From positions 1-34,250 of the IMG/VR virus record IMGVR_UViG_3300025151_000146: a stretch of DNA of 34,250 nt, one strand, 5' to 3'. The notes below the pieces were generated by a model. That model was not told where the DNA came from and did not search any database. It saw only the letters and a program-made list of their open reading frames with translations. The position numbers were made by a program, and so were the translations under genes. Origin of the DNA: a virus. Every line of letters begins with the position of its first letter. Position 1 is the stretch's first letter. Shown here in pieces: positions 2,862 through 34,250 of this stretch.

Positions 2862-3434
2862 ATGGCAAACCAAGATAAACCATTTGGGTTTAAGCTAGTA
2901 GGTAACTTGTCTGGTGTAAACAACCATAGAGTTAACGAATACAATATTGAATCTGGCTCAACCCAAGGGATCTTCTCAGGAGACCCAGTAAAAATGTTAA
3001 CAGGCGGTTTCATAGACGTAGCTGATGCCGCAGGTGACGTTAAAATACTAGGAATCTTTAGAGGATGCCAATATGTCGATGCGAATAGCAAAGAAGTTGT
3101 CTATTCCGCCCATTTCCCTGCTGCTAAAACAGCAACAGGAGATATAGTAGCCTTTGTTGAGGATAACCCTAATAACCTATACGAAGTTCAGTGTACTGGT
3201 TCTTTAGCTAGAACAGACATTGGTGCTAACGTAGATATTGCTTACACAGCAGGATCAACAGTTAGTGGCCAATCAAAAGCAGAAATTGCTTCTTCATCTG
3301 GTTCAGGAACAGCTAACTACAGATTAGTTGGTGTTTCAAAAGATTCAGAAAACAATGAATTAGGTTCAGCTAACGTCAACATGATTGTTAAGATTAACGA
3401 ACATGCTTATGATCAGTTAGCAGGAGGTGTATAA
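2862..3434 (+). CDS. Probable capsid decoration/head protein
   Basis: A 190-aa protein beginning MANQDKPFGFKLVGNLSG, with alternating beta-strand-like segments (QGIFSGDPVKMLTGGFIDVA, GDIVAFVEDNPNNLYEVQ) and a NYRLVGVSKD segment before the end. This shape and its place just before the major capsid gene match decoration or head proteins I recall from marine phages. It would bind the outer capsid surface. Its end carries the AGGAGG ribosome-binding site of the capsid gene, only 4 nt separating the two genes. The initiation region carries an unusual hairpin described separately. Confidence 0.65.
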   Translation: MANQDKPFGFKLVGNLSGVNNHRVNEYNIESGSTQGIFSGDPVKMLTGGFIDVADAAGDVKILGIFRGCQYVDANSKEVVYSAHFPAAKTATGDIVAFVEDNPNNLYEVQCTGSLARTDIGANVDIAYTAGSTVSGQSKAEIASSSGSGTANYRLVGVSKDSENNELGSANVNMIVKINEHAYDQLAGGV

Positions 3435-3437
3435 GTC

Positions 3438-24600: not shown

Positions 24601-25535
24601 CTACTAGAGCTACTTTCTCAGCTTTTCAAGAATTATTTTCTCCATTTTATGAACCATCTTTAGGCATAAACTCCATACTACAAGCCTATAACGGAGAAAC
24701 AGACACTGGAAGAAGAATATGGACAAACAGTGATAATAGTGGAGAGAAAGTTGTAAAAGGGCTTGTTCATATAATTGATGAAATAGCACCATCTGTTGTT
24801 CCATACAACATTTCAGTAGACCCTGGCTCTGGATTACCGCTAGGTATTAGATTTGACCCAAAAGATATTGTTACAGCGACTAGCAGTATTTTTGGCGGAA
24901 CAGATGGAAAGGGTGATGATAAATTAATTAATAGACAAGGCAGAAAAATTGACCCAGCAGAAACATTAGTTCAAGCATTTAGTGGATTAAAAGTTATAAA
25001 ACCACAAATAGAAAAATCTTTAAGGTACAAAGGCTTTCAAACCAATGACATTATAAGAGATTCATCAAATCAATTTAATAGAGTTTTGCGGTCAGCAGAT
25101 GAAAGATCAGCAGATGAATTTTTAAGAGCTTATATAAATGCAAATCAAGACAGATATAATGGATTAAGAGATTTATATACAGCCATAGAAGATGCTTATT
25201 CACTTGGTTTAGATTACAACCAAATAAATACTGAGTTAAAAAATTCAAAAGTAGCTAACAGAGATTTAGTTATGAAAAACTTATTTAAACCTATGGACTT
25301 AAATAAAGATTTAATATCTCAAGCACTTTACTCTAATTATCAAAAAGCCAGACAACCTGTTCCTGTTGAGGCGCTAGAGGTAGCAAGACAACAAATGTCT
25401 CAAGAATCATTAGTAGGAGCTTTAGATCCTGTTAACTTTATTCAACCTCAAGACGTATCACAACAACCTAGTCAAACTCAAGGTGGGTTTTTAAGAGATT
25501 TAGAACTTAGAAAACTACTAGGTATTTCTAACTAA
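21636..25535 (+). CDS. Very large internal virion / DNA ejection protein, 1299 aa
   Basis: The longest frame in the window. The first 30 residues (VILDTGARVFLEEDTPEARQ) form a small domain, then a GIGAGLVSIPQGLTELG membrane-like stretch, a helical body, and near residues 840-880 a passage MKYFPLLGNFIAFPSEIIRN that I recall as conserved in large internal proteins of marine podoviruses. The C-terminus is helical and glutamine-rich. Size and position (last of the late operon) correspond to the large ejected protein of T7 (gp16), but I see no transglycosylase motif. It should form a channel or help DNA entry. It ends by sharing its stop with a convergent gene. Confidence 0.7.
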   Translation: MPTVILDTGARVFLEEDTPEARQEAKEALARGSQEYSFVGDIGRGIGAGLVSIPQGLTELGTTGIDLFFDTNITDDVNEYFESIKPEVSGSAGKTAQFITQFGVPGLGTVGLLSKASKAKQILGASLVDGAVATDDVTTIGDVIFDSESDEQRLERLDGSEKASARLLERLGVVGETAGIMLTAPAALGFVGKSAGVLSDAVAPLAVPVVNIASKTAGGLGSLANKAFGDSLRKNFTFTGRNPNELVAQLSAGKTAQLGAIKENVETVFNQVQNTINLSVKGNKLNQTDAEVLAQNIQDFIAPQSKLGFTNPSLAGKELADAANELQQNALKNIKSFEGTGNKIDYKALGMSEDVAISKLLEDARGSANLLEGEILNLSAKQGDDNLTKLFIPDEVRSAIEANQGVYGARSYKAYVDSANFSVSKEQRENAVREIQSKMGVSKTEAEMTFENFLSGPGAKNKDMYSFETPEMLLEGLKFGSLKGRKLNEFPEVRKALGEITGYGAKDWKQALRNTALASQITMSKLGSLVAKSKMFDDIRMLDENAAVYGNQKFLKDFSKDLGVPPDQLQKTFVNPEDGLTYVRFNEDAGALKGLYATETFHNSIMGATTDFLANAPALVSQSYKGLLALKAGTQYGKTVLSPTTQIRNFTSIPFFSLMNGNLGPSGRFVDSVKTIFAGLRDPGSRALKKDIIKEGKDYGIIQRGGATLDEIKALTRYAEEDSPFIQKITQSEFAKKGKKLTGIETFEKAYTMSDDTARYYNWNAEQAKLARAIEKSGADDVIPVGSARASVDLKDLVRQTDKGPVIRVGDLTGDNLDKFLKAEAAEIALNTVPTYSRVPDAVKAMKYFPLLGNFIAFPSEIIRNTFNTLARASKEMASGNAELAKIGSRRIAGAFTVTTGLPIALTNTANALTGVDQEKVDAYKRSFAAPWDKASTLIPVGSDENGNPTGFYNFSYTNPYDYLQRPVRALMMEIEKGNRNEASLMDVTTRATFSAFQELFSPFYEPSLGINSILQAYNGETDTGRRIWTNSDNSGEKVVKGLVHIIDEIAPSVVPYNISVDPGSGLPLGIRFDPKDIVTATSSIFGGTDGKGDDKLINRQGRKIDPAETLVQAFSGLKVIKPQIEKSLRYKGFQTNDIIRDSSNQFNRVLRSADERSADEFLRAYINANQDRYNGLRDLYTAIEDAYSLGLDYNQINTELKNSKVANRDLVMKNLFKPMDLNKDLISQALYSNYQKARQPVPVEALEVARQQMSQESLVGALDPVNFIQPQDVSQQPSQTQGGFLRDLELRKLLGISN

Positions 25536-26644
25536 AAAGGCACATCTTTATATTTATCTTCTTCTTCGATATTAGAAATGCTTTGTAAAGTTATTGGCCC
25601 AAAGTTTTTCATAGAACCTGTTTTCATTTCATTAAGATTATCAATAACAGACCTTGGATAATTATTGTTAACTATATGTATTAATTCTTTGCTCGAATAA
25701 TTATTAGGTGTTTTGCCACTAATTTTCTCTGAACTATTAATGATAGTTATATCTTCGTGCTTATATTCCACACTACTATCAGTTTTATTTATGCAACGAG
25801 CAGAAATCAATTCTGGGACGAAGTTATGTCTAGGGCATGCTTTTAGTTGTCTTTCTACAGTTAAATTACGTTTGTGGCTATTACAGAACCAAGTTGGATC
25901 CTCGCCATCTGTTTTTGGTTGTGCAAATCTACAGTTGCGACAGTTAATGTTAGTAGGAAGTTTTTTGCCCAGATATATGTCTTGTTGTTCTTTGGACATA
26001 AAAGACCTAATACGATAATCAGTTTCTGGTATTCTATTTTCTGGTGGTTCTTGTGACTCTACTATTCTTTTAGCTTTTTCTAAATATAAATCGTAAAGCT
26101 CTTCGTCAAAATCAATAATCTCGGTATATAAGTCAGAGTTATTTTTATTATAAACAATACTTATACATCTCTTTAATTTAAACATGCCCATATAAAGATG
26201 GACTTGTGCTTTATATTCTTGAGACCAGTCACAATAACTACCTAGTTTTTTTAATTCACTAAATCTTCTGTCATTAGCAGTTTTAAATTCTAGTAAGTAA
26301 GTTTCGTCAGGATTTAAGCCTGGTATATTTTTAGCCAAGCCATCTATATGCCCACTAACATGGCCACCAAAAGCTTTAGCTCCAAACTGTTTGCCATCTT
26401 TAGTCTTATCATATATTTTTGCGCCTTTAATCTTGCGCATTTTTTCTACTAAATGATCTTCTAATAAATTACCAAGGTCTAACAACCTAGAAACTCTAGG
26501 CTCTACATCTATAGGCATAGACCATCTGAAGATAAACCAAAGCATTCTGTCATTCTCAGAACCTATTTGACTGACTCCTAAGTAATGTCTTGGCGTAAAC
26601 TTTTCTTTTTCTTCTAGATCATCAAAGACTTTGTTAATGCTCAT
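25532..26644 (-). CDS. PD-(D/E)XK exonuclease, RecB/Cas4-like
   Basis: A 370-aa nuclease. Motif positions: GNLLEDHLVEKM (E62), GGHVSGHIDG (H99, D101), LLEFKTAN (E119-x-K121) and QVHLYM (Q147), which is the RecB-type PD-(D/E)XK core. Four cysteines at about 235, 238, 254 and 270 (C-x2-C-x15-C-x15-C) suggest a metal or iron-sulfur site as in Cas4/AddB relatives, though the spacing differs. Residues 275-370 are an extension that ends EEEDKYKDVPF, similar to the SSB C-terminal tail. Clustered with Sak4-like ATPase, SSB-like protein and helicase, it probably resects DNA ends for recombination-dependent replication. Translation overlaps the helicase by 4 bases. Confidence 0.85.
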   Translation of the reverse strand: MSINKVFDDLEEKEKFTPRHYLGVSQIGSENDRMLWFIFRWSMPIDVEPRVSRLLDLGNLLEDHLVEKMRKIKGAKIYDKTKDGKQFGAKAFGGHVSGHIDGLAKNIPGLNPDETYLLEFKTANDRRFSELKKLGSYCDWSQEYKAQVHLYMGMFKLKRCISIVYNKNNSDLYTEIIDFDEELYDLYLEKAKRIVESQEPPENRIPETDYRIRSFMSKEQQDIYLGKKLPTNINCRNCRFAQPKTDGEDPTWFCNSHKRNLTVERQLKACPRHNFVPELISARCINKTDSSVEYKHEDITIINSSEKISGKTPNNYSSKELIHIVNNNYPRSVIDNLNEMKTGSMKNFGPITLQSISNIEEEDKYKDVPF

Positions 26645-28305
26645 AGCTTTATAAGTTTGTTCTCTTTGTTTCTAATACCGATAATGTTCTCATAACTGCC
26701 CTCTGTTCTCAAGACTACCTCTTGTATTGTATCAAATGCACCATTATTTATAAGTTCTGTTGCCATCCAAGGTTGTTTAGGGGCTGTCCACTCTGGAGCA
26801 ATCTTACGCCAACGGCTTACTGCCATGTTGTGAGCGTTAGGATGTCCAAACATAAGAGCCATCTTCTTGGCAAAGAACTCGTCTTTTAAGGTAAATATTA
26901 CACAACAATACTCATTGCCACTTTTAGACTTTTTAGTTACAGCAAATATATCAGAAACTCCTTTTACTCTTGGTTTTGATTTTGCTTTCTCGTCTGAAAG
27001 CACAGCTTGTCTTTGAGCTTTTGTTCTTTTAGCTGCCTTTCTTTCTTTAATCGTTACTAATGTTTTTGTTTTTGCAATAACAAACTTTGAATTACACTCA
27101 GAACATCTAGTGGCGCTAGGACTATTAACAGCATTACAAGTTGCACATATCTTGGGCCTGTAACGAGATGAACTTTGTTCTGGCTTGACCTCATCTAAAC
27201 ATCCATGACGGGCAACATTCTCACCATAGTCTAGTAATAAACAGTTTTCTTTGTTTGGGTGTAAACGCATACCTCTACCACACATTTGCACATACAATCC
27301 TGGGCTTTCTGTTGGTCTAAGCAGTGCAATACAATCTGTTCTTGGAGCATCCCAACCCTCTGTTAAAACTCCGACATTACACAAGGCATGAATCTTACCA
27401 TCCTCAAAGTCTTGCAGTATTTGTTCACGTTCTGCTTTTGGCGTTTCTCCTGTGACACATGCAGCAGCTATGCCTTGAGCCTGTAGGAAAGATGTCATTT
27501 TCAAAGCGTGTAGCACTGAAACACAAAAGAATACTGTAGCAGTTCTGCCCTTGGTATATGCTGACTCAAGCCAATCTGAAATTATTTCAGTAATAGTTTC
27601 ATCAATCATAGCTACTTTTTCTAATTCTTTTTCTCTGAAGTCACCATTCTTAAACTTAAGCTTTACTTGACTGGCATCTATAATTGCATCTTCTTTTACT
27701 GCAAAAGCAGACAGCCTAGATAGAAAGCCTTTGTTAATTAGTTCTGGTATAGAAACAGAGTAAGCAAGACCTTTAAAGAAATGATCTTTTCTACCACCAT
27801 AGATAAGTCCTTGTCCCATTCTGTAGGGGGTAGCAGTACAACCCATGACACGCATAGGTTTAAGATGGGACAAGGCACTTATTATTTTTTTGTATCTGGT
27901 AAAACCTTGAGGGGGTATGTTGTGGGCTTCATCAATAATCATATAATCAAATGAACCAACTGCCTCTAATCTTTTAGGCGATGCTAAAGTGTCTCTACTT
28001 GCTATCAGTATTTGTGAGTCGGTATCAAATCTTTTCATACCAGCAGCCAAGACTCCAACAGGAGCTTTGGGCCATACTGATTTAAGTTTTTGTTCTGCTT
28101 GAGCTACTAATTCTTTTCTATGTGCCATAACCAAGAATCTAGCTTGAGGATTTTTTTGCAATACTTCCATAATGAAGTTACAAAATATAATTGTTTTACC
28201 AGCTGCTGTTGGCAAACATATCAAAGCATTGTCTCCTGGCTCTTTGGTATCAAACCATTTGTGTAAGGAGTCTATTGCTTGTCTTTGATAGTATCTTAGT
28301 TTCAA
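26641..28305 (-). CDS. SF2 DEAH-box DNA helicase
   Basis: A 554-aa helicase with PTAAGKT (Walker A, 32-38), IIDEAH (DEAH at 125-128), GCTATPYR (motif III), and the C-terminal RecA lobe with CGRGMRLHP (motif VI; about 330). Near 385-410 there is a CxxC...CxxC zinc finger (CATCNAVNSPSATRCSECN). Overall order matches UvsW/RadD-like branch-migration helicases. The last 100 residues read like a separate small domain (KSGNEYCCVIFTLKDEFFAK). It would work with the recombination proteins upstream. Start and stop overlap neighbours by 4 bases each. Confidence 0.9.
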   Translation of the reverse strand: MKLRYYQRQAIDSLHKWFDTKEPGDNALICLPTAAGKTIIFCNFIMEVLQKNPQARFLVMAHRKELVAQAEQKLKSVWPKAPVGVLAAGMKRFDTDSQILIASRDTLASPKRLEAVGSFDYMIIDEAHNIPPQGFTRYKKIISALSHLKPMRVMGCTATPYRMGQGLIYGGRKDHFFKGLAYSVSIPELINKGFLSRLSAFAVKEDAIIDASQVKLKFKNGDFREKELEKVAMIDETITEIISDWLESAYTKGRTATVFFCVSVLHALKMTSFLQAQGIAAACVTGETPKAEREQILQDFEDGKIHALCNVGVLTEGWDAPRTDCIALLRPTESPGLYVQMCGRGMRLHPNKENCLLLDYGENVARHGCLDEVKPEQSSSRYRPKICATCNAVNSPSATRCSECNSKFVIAKTKTLVTIKERKAAKRTKAQRQAVLSDEKAKSKPRVKGVSDIFAVTKKSKSGNEYCCVIFTLKDEFFAKKMALMFGHPNAHNMAVSRWRKIAPEWTAPKQPWMATELINNGAFDTIQEVVLRTEGSYENIIGIRNKENKLIKL

Positions 28306-28619
28306 TGAATCGTATTTTCTTTTATATACCCATCGGCATAAAAGGTGTTCAACATGTCATTTACATCTAGGTTTTCATTTTCCATTTTCTCTGTAATCAA
28401 GGCACTAATAGCGTGTACCACTTGAGTTGGGTTTTCAGAGTAATGAAATCCTATATCTAATGCAAAGCTCATCAAGGCTATGATCGAAGACTCAACATCT
28501 TGGCCATCAGCAACCCATTCGTCTAAACATTTTTGTAGGTCTTCAGTTACTCTGTCTACGCATGTAGCGTCCAGTGATTTTAGATAAGAACCTTTGGACT
28601 TTTTTAGTTTCATAGTCAT
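28302..28619 (-). CDS. Hypothetical helical protein, 105 aa
   Basis: A mostly helical acidic protein (DRVTEDLQKCLDEWVADGQD; ESSIIALMSFALDIGFHYSE; AISALITEKMENENLD). The start ATG 28619 lies 77 bases inside the upstream 75-aa gene, in another frame, and I see no ribosome-binding site for it; no other in-frame ATG gives a sensible start until deep inside. Because it ends in the 4-base overlap typical of this operon, and the sequence looks protein-like to its end, I treat it as real. I do not recognise the family. Confidence 0.65.
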   Translation of the reverse strand: MTMKLKKSKGSYLKSLDATCVDRVTEDLQKCLDEWVADGQDVESSIIALMSFALDIGFHYSENPTQVVHAISALITEKMENENLDVNDMLNTFYADGYIKENTIH

Positions 28620-28770
28620 AGTTTACATTTAATATTAAGTTTTTAGTATTATCCACCCTTTCTTCAAGATTAGATGGCATTATAGGATATGTCTTTTCAA
28701 GCTCTATTATAAGATCTGTCACAGACACTAACGTATTTTTTAAATCAATTTCTAAATCATCTTTAAACAT
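28543..28770 (-). CDS. Small helical hypothetical protein, 75 aa
   Basis: ATG 28770 is preceded by TTGGAG about 6 nt away. The product starts FKDDLEIDLKNTLVSVTDLI, is largely helical and turns basic at its end (KITGRYMRRQSN). It overlaps the following gene by 77 bases in a different frame, unusual for this operon; the C-terminal 25 residues may therefore be constrained by the neighbour, or one of the two starts is wrong. No family recognised. It is the first gene after the structured gap 28784-28894. Confidence 0.6.
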   Translation of the reverse strand: MFKDDLEIDLKNTLVSVTDLIIELEKTYPIMPSNLEERVDNTKNLILNVNYDYETKKVQRFLSKITGRYMRRQSN

Positions 28771-28783
28771 ATTTTCTCCAAGT

Positions 28784-28894
28784 CTTAGTGTGTTTTAGTG
28801 TGCTGAAAAATAAGGCATCTTTTTAAAGCCTTCTCGGAGTACACACTAAAACTAAGGCAGCACTAAGAAACTACCTGGAATACTTAACTCCGAG
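28784..28894 (-). promoter_or_regulatory. Nested and competing inverted repeats between SSB-like gene and the 75-aa gene
   Basis: Arms seen on the plus strand: CTTAGTG 28784-28790 with CACTAAG 28861-28867; TTTTAGTGTG 28793-28802 with CACACTAAAA 28842-28851; AAGGC 28812-28816 with GCCTT 28828-28832; CTCGGAGT 28833-28840 with ACTCCGAG 28887-28894. The first three nest, the fourth competes with them. Read in the operon (minus) direction the inner AAGGC/GCCTT hairpin is followed by ATTTTT, like a weak terminator. The 127-nt gap has no gene. Attenuator, RNA processing site or origin are possible. Confidence 0.7.
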
Positions 28895-28897
28895 TTA

Positions 28898-29413
28898 TTA
28901 TTCGTCCCAATCAAAATCGTCATCATCAGCACTTTCAGAGCTATCTGATTTTTTCTCTGTCTTTGCTGGTTTCTTACTAGCAACCTTTTTCTCACTAGGG
29001 ATATATGACGCTATCCTGTTTGAGTCTTCGTATTTAGTTCCATCATCTTTCTCAGTACCAGGCTCCACTTTAACTTTCGCTAAGAATGAAACATTCATCA
29101 TGGATTCTAATTCTTCCATACCAAAAGCATTAACATCTGGATCTAGTCCCATAGACCTTCTCCACTGTCTAAGCTTTTGTGTAGAAATATTTAGACCATT
29201 ACCTTCGAGCATAAAATGCTCCCAGATTTTTCGTCCTGAAAAATTAGGTCCAACGACATCGAACTCTACTTTAATCATTCGATTGCCACTGGCTTTACTC
29301 TGCGTGTGTTGCCAGGTGCTACCCTGCAACTCATATTCACCTGCTGGCATAGCACCAATAGGAGAATCATCATCTTCGACATTAGTCAAATCCAAGTTAA
29401 AATCTTGGCTCAT
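28898..29413 (-). CDS. SSB-like protein, DUF669 family
   Basis: A 171-aa protein with ADVDD-like start (NLTNVED region aside), then IGAMPAGEYELQGSTWQHT, a strand region RMIKVEFDVVGPNFSGRKIW, and KLRQWRRSMGLDP, matching the DUF669 family as I recall it; this family is considered an SSB-type OB-fold protein in phage recombination modules. The C-terminus is lysine-rich then acidic (SADDDDFDWDE), the usual layout of an SSB tail that recruits partners. AAGGA precedes ATG 29413 by about 10 nt. It would coat single-stranded DNA and load the Sak4-like ATPase encoded just upstream. Confidence 0.85.
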   Translation of the reverse strand: MSQDFNLDLTNVEDDDSPIGAMPAGEYELQGSTWQHTQSKASGNRMIKVEFDVVGPNFSGRKIWEHFMLEGNGLNISTQKLRQWRRSMGLDPDVNAFGMEELESMMNVSFLAKVKVEPGTEKDDGTKYEDSNRIASYIPSEKKVASKKPAKTEKKSDSSESADDDDFDWDE

Positions 29414-29418
29414 AATAT

Positions 29419-30180
29419 TTATCCTTCCTTAATCTTTTTTAAAGATTGTTTAAATGCTGCAAGAAACGCAGACCAATCTAGGTCTATAGGCATAGCGCCT
29501 AAATCCACTCTAGATTTTGCATCAAATGCTGCCGTAAATTTATGAAACAACTTACGCTTGCCATAAGACACAGCACGAGTTGTTTCTTTAAACCCTTGTC
29601 CACTTGTACGAGTTGATACCTCGTAGTTTGCAAACAAGTTAAAGTCAACCCACTCACGAATCAAAGCCGAAACTTTTTTGTGGGTGTTCATTTCCCAACG
29701 ATCATAAGGCTCACGCTCTGGGTCGTTGAATGTTCTTATTGCTACATGAGATAAAAGGACTATGTGCATCTTCTTTTTATCTTGTAGAGCATCAAATAAA
29801 CGTAGTAGTTTGTGAAACAATTCGGCTGCCTCAACAAACCCCTTACCAAAACCTATGGCTTCGATAGATTTTACTGAATGGTTTTGACAAACTTTTTCAT
29901 GTATAAGTTTCTCTGCCCAATCAGTTGTATCGAATACTAAAGTTTTGTATTCATGTTCATCTTCATAAAGACTTTGCACTTGCTTTACTATTTCATCGTA
30001 AGACTTGCACAAAGGAAAAGAATCAACATCTAAAAACTTAGTGCCGTCCTCTGTCTTAATAAAGATTGGTTTTGGTGCTTTAGATGCAAAGGTAGTTTTA
30101 CCTATGCCGTCAGTTCCTGAAATATTTATTTTCAGTGCAGGGACTTTTAGTCCTGATTGAACGCTTTGTAGTAGACTCAT
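29419..30180 (-). CDS. Sak4-like RecA-fold ATPase (AAA_24)
   Basis: A 253-aa P-loop ATPase with GTDGIGKTT (Walker A, about 22-30), a conserved FIKTEDGTKFLDV turn, TLVFDTTDW (Walker B, 80-88) and HIVLLSHV. This layout is the AAA_24/Sak4 family of single-strand annealing or strand-exchange proteins encoded next to SSB-like genes in phages. In this operon it would pair single strands produced by the RecB-like nuclease. It starts by an ATGA overlap with the preceding small gene and is followed 5 nt later by the SSB-like gene region. Confidence 0.85.
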   Translation of the reverse strand: MSLLQSVQSGLKVPALKINISGTDGIGKTTFASKAPKPIFIKTEDGTKFLDVDSFPLCKSYDEIVKQVQSLYEDEHEYKTLVFDTTDWAEKLIHEKVCQNHSVKSIEAIGFGKGFVEAAELFHKLLRLFDALQDKKKMHIVLLSHVAIRTFNDPEREPYDRWEMNTHKKVSALIREWVDFNLFANYEVSTRTSGQGFKETTRAVSYGKRKLFHKFTAAFDAKSRVDLGAMPIDLDWSAFLAAFKQSLKKIKEG

Positions 30181-30377
30181 ATTAATTTCTCCTCTTTGAT
30201 TTTTTCAATACCTTTTTCCATTATAGTTCTAATGGCATCAGATCTTGTCATCTTAAAAGTTACACCATATTTATTAGTAACAGCAGACTCGTCTACTAAC
30301 TTGTCTGCAAATTCTAGGTGTTCATACGGAAATCTGTAGCCAATGCTATCAGATAGTTTTGTTTTTGATTTAATCAT
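30177..30377 (-). CDS. Small ribbon-helix-helix-like protein, 66 aa
   Basis: The C-terminal half VTFKMTRSDAIRTIMEKGIE has the strand-then-helix pattern of ribbon-helix-helix regulators (short strand, then SDAIRxxxxxGI), and the N-terminal half is amphipathic. Such proteins are usually dimeric DNA-binding repressors. The gene overlaps both neighbours by 4 bases and lies second in the leftward operon, a normal place for an early regulator. The assignment rests on a short pattern; an unrelated helical protein is possible. Confidence 0.6.
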   Translation of the reverse strand: MIKSKTKLSDSIGYRFPYEHLEFADKLVDESAVTNKYGVTFKMTRSDAIRTIMEKGIEKIKEEKLI

Positions 30378-30820
30378 TTCTGTTTAGTTGGCTCTACAAA
30401 AGATATGTAAGGTCTTTCATTTATTCTGGTTTGCAAACCCTCTTGCACCTTATTATAAATATCTGGGTTGTTATCTATTAAAGAGGCAATCTTCTTTGTG
30501 TCCTCAACATATTCTGTTCTAAATGGAAACAAGTCCTCTGGCACATCTGATTTGATTTTATTTATATGCTCTTGATCCCAAGACCTGGTAACACGATACT
30601 GAACTCTCAAGTCTAAAGGTATTAGGCCATCGAGCTTAACTCTTTTAGATCCACCTGACTCATTCAAGTCACCGATAGTTTCTAAAATTTCTTGACGAGT
30701 AGCGAGTTCTCTATCGAGAGCCTCACTCTCTTTTCGTAGTTCGGCTTGCTTAGATAAATTTTTCTTTTTCATCTTCAGCAGGTCGATAAAATTTTTATTA
30801 GATAATTTTATATCTTCCAT
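30374..30820 (-). CDS. Coiled-coil early protein, 148 aa, first gene of the leftward operon
   Basis: I place the start at ATG 30820, which has GGAG 6 nt upstream; a longer frame to 30856 would run into the leader hairpin and has no ribosome-binding site. Residues 5-55 form a coiled coil (FIDLLKMKKKNLSKQAELRK and ESEALDRELATRQEI), followed by KRVKLDGLIPLDLRVQYRVT and a WDQEHINKIKSDVPEDLFPF domain and the end INERPYISFVEP. The layout resembles small phage proteins of the DUF7173 type (memory, unverified), which have no known role. Possibly a recombination or host-takeover accessory protein. Confidence 0.65.
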   Translation of the reverse strand: MEDIKLSNKNFIDLLKMKKKNLSKQAELRKESEALDRELATRQEILETIGDLNESGGSKRVKLDGLIPLDLRVQYRVTRSWDQEHINKIKSDVPEDLFPFRTEYVEDTKKIASLIDNNPDIYNKVQEGLQTRINERPYISFVEPTKQK

Positions 30821-30851
30821 AATAATCTCCAAAATGTGGCGGTAAGACATG

Positions 30852-30880
30852 TCCAACCTTCAAGGAGGTGTTAAGTTGGA
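30852..30880 (-). promoter_or_regulatory. Leader hairpin exposing an anti-Shine-Dalgarno sequence
   Basis: On the minus (leader RNA) strand, TCCAAC and GTTGGA form a 6-bp stem (plus two more pairs with one bulge) around a 12-nt loop that contains CACCTCCTT, identical to the 3' end of bacterial 16S rRNA. It sits about 31 nt before the first gene of the leftward operon. On the plus strand the same bases read AAGGAGGTG, a perfect ribosome-binding site without a credible gene. Confidence 0.6.
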
Positions 30881-30909
30881 AATAATAAAAAAAAAACAAC
30901 TTAATCTTG

Positions 30910-31009
30910 CAACGCTTTATCCTCACCAAAAAAATAAAGTGTTGGGCTGTCTCTTGACCCTTGGCTTTTTAAAATGATTGAAAAAAAAAACACTTTGTCA
31001 AGAGCGTTG
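30910..31009. repeat. Interlocking inverted repeats in the early leader
   Basis: Pairs: CAACGCT 30910-30916 with AGCGTTG 31003-31009; AAAGTGTT 30936-30943 with AACACTTT 30989-30996; CTCTTGAC 30951-30958 with GTCAAGAG 30997-31004; plus TTATCC 30917-30922 with GGATAA 31009-31014. The second and third pairs cross instead of nesting, so the RNA could form a pseudoknot, or the DNA bases may be operator or origin boxes. The stretch 30821-31123 (303 nt) has no clear gene. Confidence 0.65.
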
Positions 31010-31050
31010 GATAACAGCAATATTACTAGCCTTACCTCAACCACTATTAA

Positions 31051-31080
31051 ATTATAAAAATAAAAATAACTTTTTGTCAA
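31051..31080 (-). promoter_or_regulatory. Consensus sigma70 promoter for the leftward early operon
   Basis: On the minus strand TTGACA (31080-31075) and TATAAT (31056-31051) are separated by 18 nt, both perfect matches to consensus. It is the best promoter I see in the window. Predicted transcription start is near 31044, giving a leader of about 220 nt before ATG 30820. Confidence 0.8.
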
Positions 31081-31083
31081 CAA
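31074..31083. promoter_or_regulatory. Candidate operator TTGTCAACAA
   Basis: The dyad TTGT-CA-ACAA covers the -35 box of the leftward promoter. A regulator bound here would block leftward transcription. TTGTCAA occurs again at 30995-31001 within the repeat cluster. Confidence 0.35.
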
Positions 31084-31087
31084 TTTA

Positions 31088-31115
31088 TTTACTTAATGTA
31101 AAAAACATTTAATAT
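31088..31115 (+). promoter_or_regulatory. Candidate weak promoter for the Cro-like gene
   Basis: TTTACT (31088-31093) and TAATAT (31110-31115) are 16 nt apart. With a start about 7 nt past the -10 box, transcription would begin at or next to ATG 31124, giving a leaderless or nearly leaderless message; no ribosome-binding site is seen before that ATG. Confidence 0.4.
31095..31109. promoter_or_regulatory. Candidate operator dyad AATGT-A5-ACATT
   Basis: A perfect 5-bp inverted repeat with a 5-nt A spacer lies between the presumed -35 and -10 boxes of the rightward promoter, 15-29 nt upstream of the Cro-like gene. Its size fits an HTH dimer site. Confidence 0.4.
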
Positions 31116-31123
31116 AGAAAACT

Positions 31124-31348
31124 ATGAAACTTAAAGAATATATTCAAAAAGTGGGAGAGCAGGAGTTAGCCGATAAAATGAACGTGTCAAAAAATACTAT
31201 TATTTCTTGGCGATATGGTGCAAGACAACCTTCAGTTAAACAAGCAAAAAAACTCATTAGCATGACAGGACGTGCTTTAGATTGGGAAGATATTTATGGT
31301 CCAGTAAATTTACAAAAAGATCCTGTCGCAGTGAGTGATGAGCTATAA
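31124..31348 (+). CDS. Cro/C1-type helix-turn-helix regulator, 74 aa
   Basis: A small protein with a helix-turn-helix from about 13 to 37: GEQELADKMNVSKNTIISWR, then YGARQPSVKQAKKL, and a short tail. This is the Cro/YdaS size and pattern (DNA-binding domain only, no dimerisation or cleavage domain). It is transcribed away from the strong leftward promoter and probably represses it and/or its own promoter. ATG 31124 has no ribosome-binding site and a -10-like box lies only 8 nt upstream, pointing to a leaderless message. Its end overlaps the prim-pol start. Confidence 0.8.
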   Translation: MKLKEYIQKVGEQELADKMNVSKNTIISWRYGARQPSVKQAKKLISMTGRALDWEDIYGPVNLQKDPVAVSDEL

Positions 31349-33305
31349 AGAAGACGACAAGCCTAAAGATTTAATAAAAAAATATTGGGCTGATGGATGT
31401 CATTTAATCCCTTGTGGGTCTACCAGAGACCCCATTCCAGAATACTTTCGTAAGAAACACCCCTTTGAAGATGATTTTGGCTTGGCTCGTAAATGGGCTA
31501 AGACCCCAAGAGTAAAGTGGTCTGAGTATATAAAAAGAAAACCAAACAAATCAGACATAACTAATTGGTATCAAAAGTTCCCTAACTGTAATTGGGCTGC
31601 CATCACAGGTATAAACTTTGTAGTCTTGGACGCTGATACTTATGACGCTTGTATGTTCGTAGAGGAGTCTGGCATAACAAAAACACCCATGAAACAAAAG
31701 ACACCTAGAGGTGGGTATCACTATTTCTACTCTATATCAGATCATATTATAAAGAACACAACAGGTAGACTAGATGTAAGGGGACAAGGTGGCTATGTCA
31801 TGATGCAACCATCTAATGATTATGAGCTTGAACTAGATGAAGAGATAAGTTCTTTCAGCGATTTACCTAAACTTTCCATGCAAGATATAAATAGTATTTA
31901 CGACTACAACAACAAGGGCAAGGTATCAAAAGAGAACTCAACAATACTAGCAACTGACGGAGTTGGCGAGGGACAGAGGAACGATACCCTAGCTAGATTA
32001 GTTGGCAAATGGATAAGAGAGGGTTGGGGTTTGCGTGAAGTAATTATAAAAGCTTTGGACTGGAATCAAACAAACAAACCACCCATGCAACTAGAAGAAG
32101 TTATGCAAACAGTAAACAGTATCTGTTCAGGACATGTGCGAAGAAACCCAGATGACCTTGATGCAGGTATACACAAATGGAAAACAAGTGAGTGGCAGAT
32201 AAAACTAGCAGACGAACTAAAAGAAATAATGGATCAAGAAGACCCCATTGAACAACAAAAGAAAACAGAAACACAAAAAGACCCACTAGGTTTAAAACCT
32301 TTCAACAATGATTTTTGGGAAGGTATGGACGCAGGTAGAATAGAACAGTATTGGGGTGATTGTTTCATCTTCCAAGAGTCTAGGGTGTTGTTGGTTGGTA
32401 AACCTAAAATAGGAAAGTCACATTGGCTTGGGGCTTTCGCTGCTGCTGCCACAACAGGCACAGAGTTTATGGGCAAACAGTTTTCTCGTCCCTTGAAAGT
32501 GATGTGGCTACAAGCAGAAATCATACATGAGTTTCTAAAGAACAGAGTAGATATGTATTACCAACCTTTTGAACACGATGAAGAACTTTTACAACTTGGT
32601 AAATCAAACTTGATAGCATCAGGCAGACTGAGAAAAAATATCATGAGAGATGCAGACATGGATGACATAGCACAGAGTATTGACTATCACAAACCAGACT
32701 TGCTTATGATTGACCCAATAATTAATTTTTTTAGTGGGGAAGAAAACTCAAACCAAGAAGTGCATGAGATGTTATCTCGTGTTGATAAACTTATAGAAAT
32801 GTTCAAAGTTGCTTGTATCATTGCACACCACACTGGGAAAGAAAGAGCAGACGATTTAACTTTTATGTCTGCAAGAGGTGGCTCTGCCTTCGCAGGTTGG
32901 ATGGACTCTGGTATAAAACTTTTAGGCACAAAACCAAACATTACATTATTTTATGAAGCTCGAAATGCTAAAGAGCCAGAACAACATAACGCATACTTTG
33001 ATTACCAAGAAGGTTGTTTCAAGATGGTGCAACCAAAAGAAGGTCCAGACGAAGTAGCTATAGCAAAGGTGGTAGCAAAGGCTATGGACAAACATAAGTT
33101 CTACACAAGACAAGACTTAGAGATATTAGCAAGACAAGCATTGAAAGAAGCAGATCAAGCTAGTGGTGAGAGAGCGGGTAGATATGCAGTAAGTTATGTC
33201 ACAAAATATTTAGGGCATGTTGTAAAAGTTTACCAACAGCCAGGTAAGAACACATGGTATTTCTTGGCAGAGAATAAGGCCAAAAGACCTTGGGAAGATA
33301 AATGA
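31338..33305 (+). CDS. Primase-polymerase fused to RepA/AAA_25-type helicase
   Basis: Start at ATG 31338 (a GTG at 31335 is directly upstream in frame), overlapping the regulator. The N-terminal half is a prim-pol domain: NWAAITGINFVVLDAD with D98 and D100 as metal ligands, TPRGGYHYFY with H128, and RLDVRGQGGYVMMQPS. The C-terminal half is a RecA-type ATPase: VGKPKIGKSH (Walker A, about 352-361), LLMIDPI (Walker B, about 455-461) and CIIAHHTGKE, as in RepA/DnaB-like helicases. The combination makes primers and unwinds at the fork; the protein should start phage replication. A short winged-helix-like end (RQDLEILARQALKEA) follows. Confidence 0.88.
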   Translation: MSYKEDDKPKDLIKKYWADGCHLIPCGSTRDPIPEYFRKKHPFEDDFGLARKWAKTPRVKWSEYIKRKPNKSDITNWYQKFPNCNWAAITGINFVVLDADTYDACMFVEESGITKTPMKQKTPRGGYHYFYSISDHIIKNTTGRLDVRGQGGYVMMQPSNDYELELDEEISSFSDLPKLSMQDINSIYDYNNKGKVSKENSTILATDGVGEGQRNDTLARLVGKWIREGWGLREVIIKALDWNQTNKPPMQLEEVMQTVNSICSGHVRRNPDDLDAGIHKWKTSEWQIKLADELKEIMDQEDPIEQQKKTETQKDPLGLKPFNNDFWEGMDAGRIEQYWGDCFIFQESRVLLVGKPKIGKSHWLGAFAAAATTGTEFMGKQFSRPLKVMWLQAEIIHEFLKNRVDMYYQPFEHDEELLQLGKSNLIASGRLRKNIMRDADMDDIAQSIDYHKPDLLMIDPIINFFSGEENSNQEVHEMLSRVDKLIEMFKVACIIAHHTGKERADDLTFMSARGGSAFAGWMDSGIKLLGTKPNITLFYEARNAKEPEQHNAYFDYQEGCFKMVQPKEGPDEVAIAKVVAKAMDKHKFYTRQDLEILARQALKEADQASGERAGRYAVSYVTKYLGHVVKVYQQPGKNTWYFLAENKAKRPWEDK

Positions 33306-33520
33306 AGATAGACAAAAAAGCCTTTAAGGAATCTGTAGCAGACACAATGTTGGGACTAGCAATAAACTTTCCTATGGTTTACATAACTCTAAGTATCTGT
33401 TTACTTTTTACCACAGACGCTTTTGTTATAACAATAGTGCAAACGATAGTCATAACTATCATTGCTATAATAAGAAGATACGCTACAAGATTATGGTTTA
33501 AACAAAGGAATGGCGATTAA
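33302..33520 (+). CDS. Small two-helix membrane protein, DUF7220-like
   Basis: A 72-aa protein with an N-terminal charged helix, then two hydrophobic spans (MVYITLSICLLFTTDAFVIT and IVQTIVITIIAII) and a basic end RRYATRLWFKQRNGD. The layout and the terminal R-x-Y-x-x-R-x-W-F pattern are those I remember for a small phage membrane family (possibly DUF7220). Function unknown; the basic tail predicts a cytoplasmic C-terminus. Starts in a 4-base overlap with the prim-pol gene and overlaps the methyltransferase start. Confidence 0.7.
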   Translation: MKIDKKAFKESVADTMLGLAINFPMVYITLSICLLFTTDAFVITIVQTIVITIIAIIRRYATRLWFKQRNGD

Positions 33521-34250
33521 GGTATTAAGTTTATTTGATGGTATGAGTTGTGGGCAGATAGCCCTAGATCAATTAGGTATAGAGGTTGACACTTACTATG
33601 CAAGTGAAATAGATAAGTATGCTATCGAGATAACACAAAAAAATTTTCCCGAAACAATACAAGTTGGTGACATTACAAAACTAGATCCTAAAGATTTCGC
33701 AGACGTAGATTTAATTATGGGTGGTAGTCCGTGCCAAGGTTTTTCATTTGCAGGCAAACAATTAGCATTTGATGACCCAAGGTCTGCATTGTTTTTTGAG
33801 TTTATTCGTATGCTCAAAGCAATCAAGCCTAAGTATTTTTTATTAGAGAATGTCAGAATGAAGAAAGAGTTTCTAGATATTATTTCACAGCAAGTATCAG
33901 AGTGTTATCCAGAGATTACTTTTGGCATACAACCTATATTAATAAATAGTTCTTTGGTATCAGCACAATCAAGACAAAGATACTATTGGACAAATATTCC
34001 AAATATAAAACAACCAGAAGAAAGAGGTATTGTCTTGCGAGATATATTAGAAGATGATGTGAACAACGAATTTTATCATGGTAAGAAATCAATAGAATAT
34101 ATGGAAAGAGGCAATGATAAATGGCAACAAGCAGGAGCAAGAAGAGCAGATAGATACGAGCAAACAGCAGATAAAGAAAAGTCTTTTACCATAACAGAAA
34201 ACTGGCACAAAGGAGTGCCATATAATTATTTTAAAGAAACCAAACCAAAA
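33510..34250 (+). CDS. DNA (cytosine-5) methyltransferase, N-terminal part
   Basis: An open frame from ATG 33510 reaches the window edge with 247 codons and no stop. It begins VLSLFDGMSCGQIALDQLGI (motif I, AdoMet binding), YYASEIDKYA (motif II), MGGSPCQGFSFAG with catalytic C75 (motif IV), LLENV at 111-115 (motif VI) and SAQSRQRYYW (motif VIII). These are all the N-terminal motifs of a C5 methyltransferase; the target-recognition and final motifs lie outside. It probably protects phage DNA against host restriction. It overlaps the preceding membrane gene by 11 bases, and no restriction partner is visible. Confidence 0.92.
   Translation, partial: MAIKVLSLFDGMSCGQIALDQLGIEVDTYYASEIDKYAIEITQKNFPETIQVGDITKLDPKDFADVDLIMGGSPCQGFSFAGKQLAFDDPRSALFFEFIRMLKAIKPKYFLLENVRMKKEFLDIISQQVSECYPEITFGIQPILINSSLVSAQSRQRYYWTNIPNIKQPEERGIVLRDILEDDVNNEFYHGKKSIEYMERGNDKWQQAGARRADRYEQTADKEKSFTITENWHKGVPYNYFKETKPK

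Follow-up and report, generated by a model that had tools for sequence, protein, structure and literature searches.

Structured RNAs Comparable to the Leader

The 5'-terminal stem-loop mRNA stabilisers of the ompA and papA type begin with a paired 5' end at the first transcribed base (+1) that is followed by an open ribosome-binding site, and RppH and RNase E require single-stranded 5' ends (PMC3997798). The alpha-r14 "cuckoo" sRNAs (NfeR1 and others) are separate alpha-proteobacterial RNAs with three hairpins, each with CCUCCUCCC, a constant and unpaired C-rich anti-Shine-Dalgarno (anti-SD) motif, while their stems are highly variable in sequence (PMC10746234). Among phage RNAs, HK022 putL and putR are sequence-conserved two-stem antitermination RNAs of about 70 nt, located directly after the early promoters of divergent operons (PMC9378689); the c4 antisense RNA of phages P1 and P7 is a structured RNA with loops aimed at ribosome-binding sites, which pairs specifically with the ant mRNA and gives immunity (PMC12197685); the cabRNA of staphylococcal phages arises in terminase genes and is a structured trigger of CBASS (PMC10686824).

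The phage leader described here shares features with each of these systems. Like the ompA/papA stem-loops, it has a paired 5' end at the predicted +1 and then an open ribosome-binding site, but it is a 220-nt multibranched domain with an anti-SD motif and fast-changing loops, whose stabilising effect is putative. As in alpha-r14, a constant unpaired C-rich anti-SD motif is combined with stems of changing sequence; in contrast, there is one CCUCCUU within a gene-joined leader, the leader sequence contains no CCUCCUCCC, and no minus-strand terminator that would make it an independent transcript separates it from the gene. As with putL/putR, a structured RNA directly follows an early promoter of divergent operons, whereas in place of a sequence-conserved pair of stem-loops of about 70 nt there is a multibranched fold with a closing stem, in which the sequences of this stem (P1) and of the loops vary freely. 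Unlike c4, it has no Rfam match and no specific partner was found, and unlike cabRNA it does not come from terminase genes. In particular, neither the window nor 18 relatives matched an Rfam 15 covariance model at gathering score, and the leaders of L057 and L059 matched none either; the weak matches near the window leader (E 0.3-3.4) look like chance. Searches of an open-access library returned no account of such a leader.

The Locus and Its Promoter

The window, i.e., the whole stretch of 34,250 nt that was analysed, is from an uncultured, probably marine phage; its features are collected in Table 1. The promoter sits between the plus-strand regulator and primase-polymerase genes (31124-33305) and the minus-strand replication operon opening with g1, whose product is a protein of unknown function, and this divergent arrangement is retained in more than 100 contigs. 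As claimed by an earlier sequence-only reading, TTGACA-N18-TATAAT is perfect at 31080-31051 and, with N16 to N19 allowed, unique in the window (1 against 0.04 expected); region 31045-31123 is identical at 79/79 bases in all relatives of the window clade. The predicted +1 is 31044, the 7th base past the -10. The leader of about 220 nt placed by the same reading between promoter and ATG 30820 was borne out; it spans about 31044 to 30821, and no terminator was found on the minus strand between it and the gene. Two other candidates in this region were discarded: a second promoter-like site (31001-30974), whose -10 is not retained in L003, L002 or L005, and a small gene within the leader (ORF 30901-31083), whose frame is disrupted by indels in L002 and L005.

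Table 1. Positions of the elements of the leader and of the surrounding genes (RNA letters within the transcript).
Feature	Positions	Strand	Remarks
IMGVR_UViG_3300025151_000146	whole window		34,250-nt virus record without cultured close relatives
Consensus promoter TTGACA-N18-TATAAT of the g1/Sak4 operon	31051..31080	-	perfect, unique in the window
Leader RNA	30821..31044	-	predicted +1 to ATG at 30820, about 220 nt
P1 5' arm	31031..31044	-	GUGGU (31044-31040), UGA bulge, GGUAAG (31036-31031)
P2 5' arm CCAAC	31006..31010	-	partner GUUGG 30857-30853
Hairpin P3 CUCUUGAC/GUCAAGAG	30951..31004	-	loop fast-changing
Hairpin P4 CAAC.CUUUAU/AUAAAG.GUUG	30910..30944	-	loop replaced in L002, L005, L198
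Hairpin P5 UUAAGUUG/CAACUUAA	30871..30904	-	loop fast-changing; 10 bp in L002
CACCUCCUU, copy of the 16S rRNA 3' end	30862..30870	-	mostly unpaired between P5 and P2
P1 3' arm	30836..30846	-	CUUACC (30846-30841) and GCCAC (30840-30836)
SD of g1, GGAG	30827..30830	-	about 97% unpaired
g1	30374..30820	-	first operon gene, ATG 30820, 148 aa, weak phrog_2480 match
Operon after g1		-	genes for Sak4-like annealing protein, SSB-like DUF669 protein, helicase, Cas4-like exonuclease
Divergent helix-turn-helix regulator	31124..31348	+	74 aa, ahead of primase-polymerase
Primase-polymerase	31335-33305	+	3' of the helix-turn-helix regulator

The regulator promoter carries a palindrome, TTTAC-N5-GTAAA (31088-31102), with comparable forms in relatives, which is likely an autorepression operator. 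At 33513-34250 an ORF that runs off the end of the record resembles a DNA cytosine methyltransferase, and has a 75% DNA match to a gene bearing this annotation in Pseudoalteromonas phage H40/1. The genes of the record that were examined included no integrase. Compared with L193 over 25533-34250, the replication module is 99% identical and the upstream structural genes hardly align, which points to strong mosaicism of the genome. As for the host, one relative in the genome collection lacks the module and lies in a contig of a Neomarinimicrobiota MAG, and one further match is distant; both are too weak for naming a host.

Fold of the Leader

The proposal of a structured leader after the consensus promoter was upheld, as the RNA folds at -56 to -59 kcal/mol, better than its shuffles (z -2.3 and -2.6). 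The strongest element is P1, in which GUGGU pairs with GCCAC and GGUAAG with CUUACC at probabilities of 0.98-1.0, the closing duplex reaching -19.0 kcal/mol where shuffles give -6.4 (p 0.001); both P1 and the fast-changing loops had been missed before. Its 5' arm begins at the predicted +1 and its partner arm lies immediately 5' of the SD, so that P1 closes a multibranched domain enclosing the hairpins P3, P4 and P5. All three hairpins are retained in the window clade, and in the alignment of six near-relative leaders (window, L003, L008, L002, L005 and L198) 2/84 paired columns vary, against 36/129 unpaired ones (28%; Fisher 3e-7); a U.G pair of P1 becomes U-A in L002, L005 and L198. A DNA-pattern search with the 3' part of the leader for further leaders matched only the known clade.

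The hairpin 30880-30852 of the sequence-only reading survives as one of two competing folds, with a probability of 0.42 in the window against 0.36 for P2 (0.82 in L008). It was rejected as the main structure: it competes with P2 and P5, and a check of the stem in relatives found its outer pair lost in L002 and L198 and P5 kept on the same bases.

The Anti-SD Motif and the SD of g1

An unpaired copy of the 16S rRNA 3' end near the end of the leader, as had been described, is found at 30870-30862 of the minus strand, where CACCTCCTT is the sole copy on either strand of the window; it is mostly unpaired in most, not all, of the window-clade alleles. With 0.31 copies expected for the 9-mer, and CCTCCTT present once against 4.9 expected, its occurrence would not by itself be surprising, and it is conservation that makes it so. 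That the loop would be conserved in close relatives held for CCTCCTT, unchanged in all six leader alleles, and failed for two bases, since L002, L005 and L198 read ACCCTCCTT, leaving 7/9 motif bases invariant.

The further idea that the loop masks the GGAG of the first gene found no support. All five full-length alleles that were folded leave the SD about 97% unpaired, with the ATG likewise open; the motif, which matches the 16S end and is not the complement of g1's own SD, forms only 4 bp with it (-6.4 kcal/mol, against -18.0 with the canonical SD AAGGAGGUGA); and in the next clade g1 of L006 has no recognisable SD, though the leader exposes CUCCU. A 4-bp pseudoknot may still form.

The same energies bear on a trans-acting anti-SD RNA, by which the leader, whole or processed, would bind SD sites of host mRNAs or late phage mRNAs with its CCUCCUU and lower their translation, like alpha-r14. 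Such a role, which we regard as unlikely, would account for a motif whose pairing with AAGGAGGUGA is far stronger than that with the leader's own SD and which stays invariant in a clade where 28% of the unpaired columns vary; it has a precedent in the unpaired CCUCCUCCC and variable stems of alpha-r14 (PMC10746234), and it draws on the relatives' leaders, in which CCTCCTT occurs in 7/24 interior clusters against 0.37 expected, as well as on the presence of the domain on either of two divergent operons, which is therefore not tied to one gene. However, no terminator or processing signal was found, the motif is absent in some relatives with near-identical genes (L175 vs L178), and the phage's own genes use AGGAG and GGAGG SDs, so that the RNA would hit its own messages too. 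At 3420-3437, the SD region of the major head protein gene contains AGGAGGTG, the 8-nt complement of CACCUCCU; this region is a possible target of the motif, in one case only.

Leaders of Related Phages

An analogous domain is present in about 60 distinct leaders of related phages, for the most part on the mRNA of the divergent repressor/primase operon and not on the g1 mRNA. These leaders measure 75-115 nt from P1 to the start codon, and P1 starts at the 8th (44) or 9th (8) base past the -10 in 52/57 leaders, at or next to the predicted +1 as in the window. Its pairing is supported by 8/13 pairs changed on both sides (covariation 0.417 vs 0.244 in shuffled alignments, 0/500) and, in a second group, by 5/12 such pairs (0.325 vs 0.202). 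The relatives' interiors have C-rich loops with CCCCC or CCUCCUU and an excess of C over G (0.26 vs 0.13); a Rho-type bias of this kind was set aside for the window leader, in which it is not evident. The covariance model R1, built on the regulator-side leaders, has no match in the window, L002, L005 or L006, and the two sets, alike in plan, are therefore called analogous here and not homologous. L006, of the next closest clade, has its own g1-side leader with z -4.0, a closing stem and an unpaired CUCCU. The clade of L022, L045, L127 and L019 has no structured leader on either operon and retains the SD directly after the promoter, and L199 is likewise without the module. No convincing second copies of the module were found elsewhere in the relatives' contigs, among 8 records.

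The location between divergent operons, adjoining the primase, could also suit an element acting as DNA, such as an operator or replication origin with inverted repeats, and the antisense strand of the window leader folds well too (z -3.3). This seems very improbable, as z is -3.1 for the sense against -1.5 for the antisense orientation, whichever operon bears the domain has P1 beginning at its predicted +1, and pairs on the transcript strand of relatives include 39 G.U against 10 A.C over 51 correctly registered alignment rows, all A.C falling in four over-extended rows.

A nascent-RNA antiterminator similar to HK022 put, binding RNA polymerase past the early promoter and allowing read-through of terminators, would be in keeping with a promoter-proximal domain found on either side of divergent promoters, as putL/putR (PMC9378689), and not tied to a particular gene. 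We hold it to be improbable: put RNAs share their sequence and two-stem shape, whereas here P1 sequence and loops vary and only C-rich motifs are kept, and just one of the two operons bears the domain, which one clade lacks.

Rapid Change of the Leader Interior

Among 74 contig pairs with a coding identity of at least 95%, which include related contigs of single clades and are thus not independent, mean identity is 0.98 in coding sequence, 0.97 in the promoter and 0.87 in the RNA interior. In 29 pairs the interior trails by more than 0.1, and the opposite is seen in none. L116 and L119 differ at 10/2100 coding, 0/83 upstream and 18/32 interior bases. Upstream of the regulator gene of L116, L119, L121, L122, L111 and L125, the flanks are near-identical and a 32-nt interior is replaced at constant length. 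The leader of L193 is 89% identical to that of the window (divergence 0.11) at a synonymous divergence of 0.03, with coding flanks about 99% identical or better and a promoter identical at 79/79 bases. By these comparisons, the leader interior evolves much faster than its flanks and promoter.

An early RNA present in abundance, with loops that change so as to evade host sensors or antisense recognition or to mark phage identity, would produce the contrast in the 74 close pairs, which is never reversed, as well as those between L116 and L119 and between window and L193, and structured phage RNA is able to trigger CBASS (PMC10686824). This explanation is doubtful: there is no known partner or sensor, and recombination of old alleles with neutral loops gives the same pattern. 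Two allele types are visible among the window-clade leaders, and exchange of old alleles is therefore a simple part of the explanation.

A Possible Role in Cis and Its Implications

We tentatively favour, at a little short of an even chance, a self-contained folded 5' UTR domain of the early replication operon that would act mainly in cis. With the P1 5' arm beginning at the predicted +1, the transcript should be base-paired from its first nucleotide; in the predicted fold P1 joins the first bases to those just 5' of the SD and encloses P3-P5, with the SD and start codon remaining open and the enclosed junction displaying the unpaired CCUCCUU. The paired 5' end may shield the mRNA from 5'-end-dependent decay, and a clean initiation site would be offered regardless of loop content, so that early expression would be strong. 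The unpaired C-rich motif could bind SD-like purine stretches and tune translation of its own or neighbouring messages, and the loops would be little constrained in sequence and perhaps even under pressure to vary.

The 5'-terminal closing stem is common to all placements and would fit 5'-end protection from RppH and RNase E, and the exposed C-rich loops, present in most leaders, would fit SD-type targets; the open SD was computed for the window clade only. Against a role in cis, stem stabilisation alone leaves the invariant CCUCCUU and the relatives' conserved CCCCC loops unexplained, the domain exceeds the length that a stabiliser needs, and one clade (L022, L045, L127, L019) manages without it. 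Moreover, the RppH/RNase E argument would presume these decay enzymes in the host. It is also conceivable, though we think it rather unlikely, that these leaders form an undescribed class of phage RNA, closed from the first transcribed base, placed on either divergent early operon and exposing an anti-SD, with loops renewed faster than the genome because they act in trans on ribosome sites or host sensors.

If the leader does act in cis, it would provide, in many uncultured phages, a clear natural series of 5'-terminal domains with conserved stems and changing loops, on which the protection and translation of phage early mRNAs could be tested. If instead the motif or the changing loops act in trans, the leader would be a phage RNA targeting ribosome sites or evading RNA-sensing defence, of which few unrelated examples are known at present.
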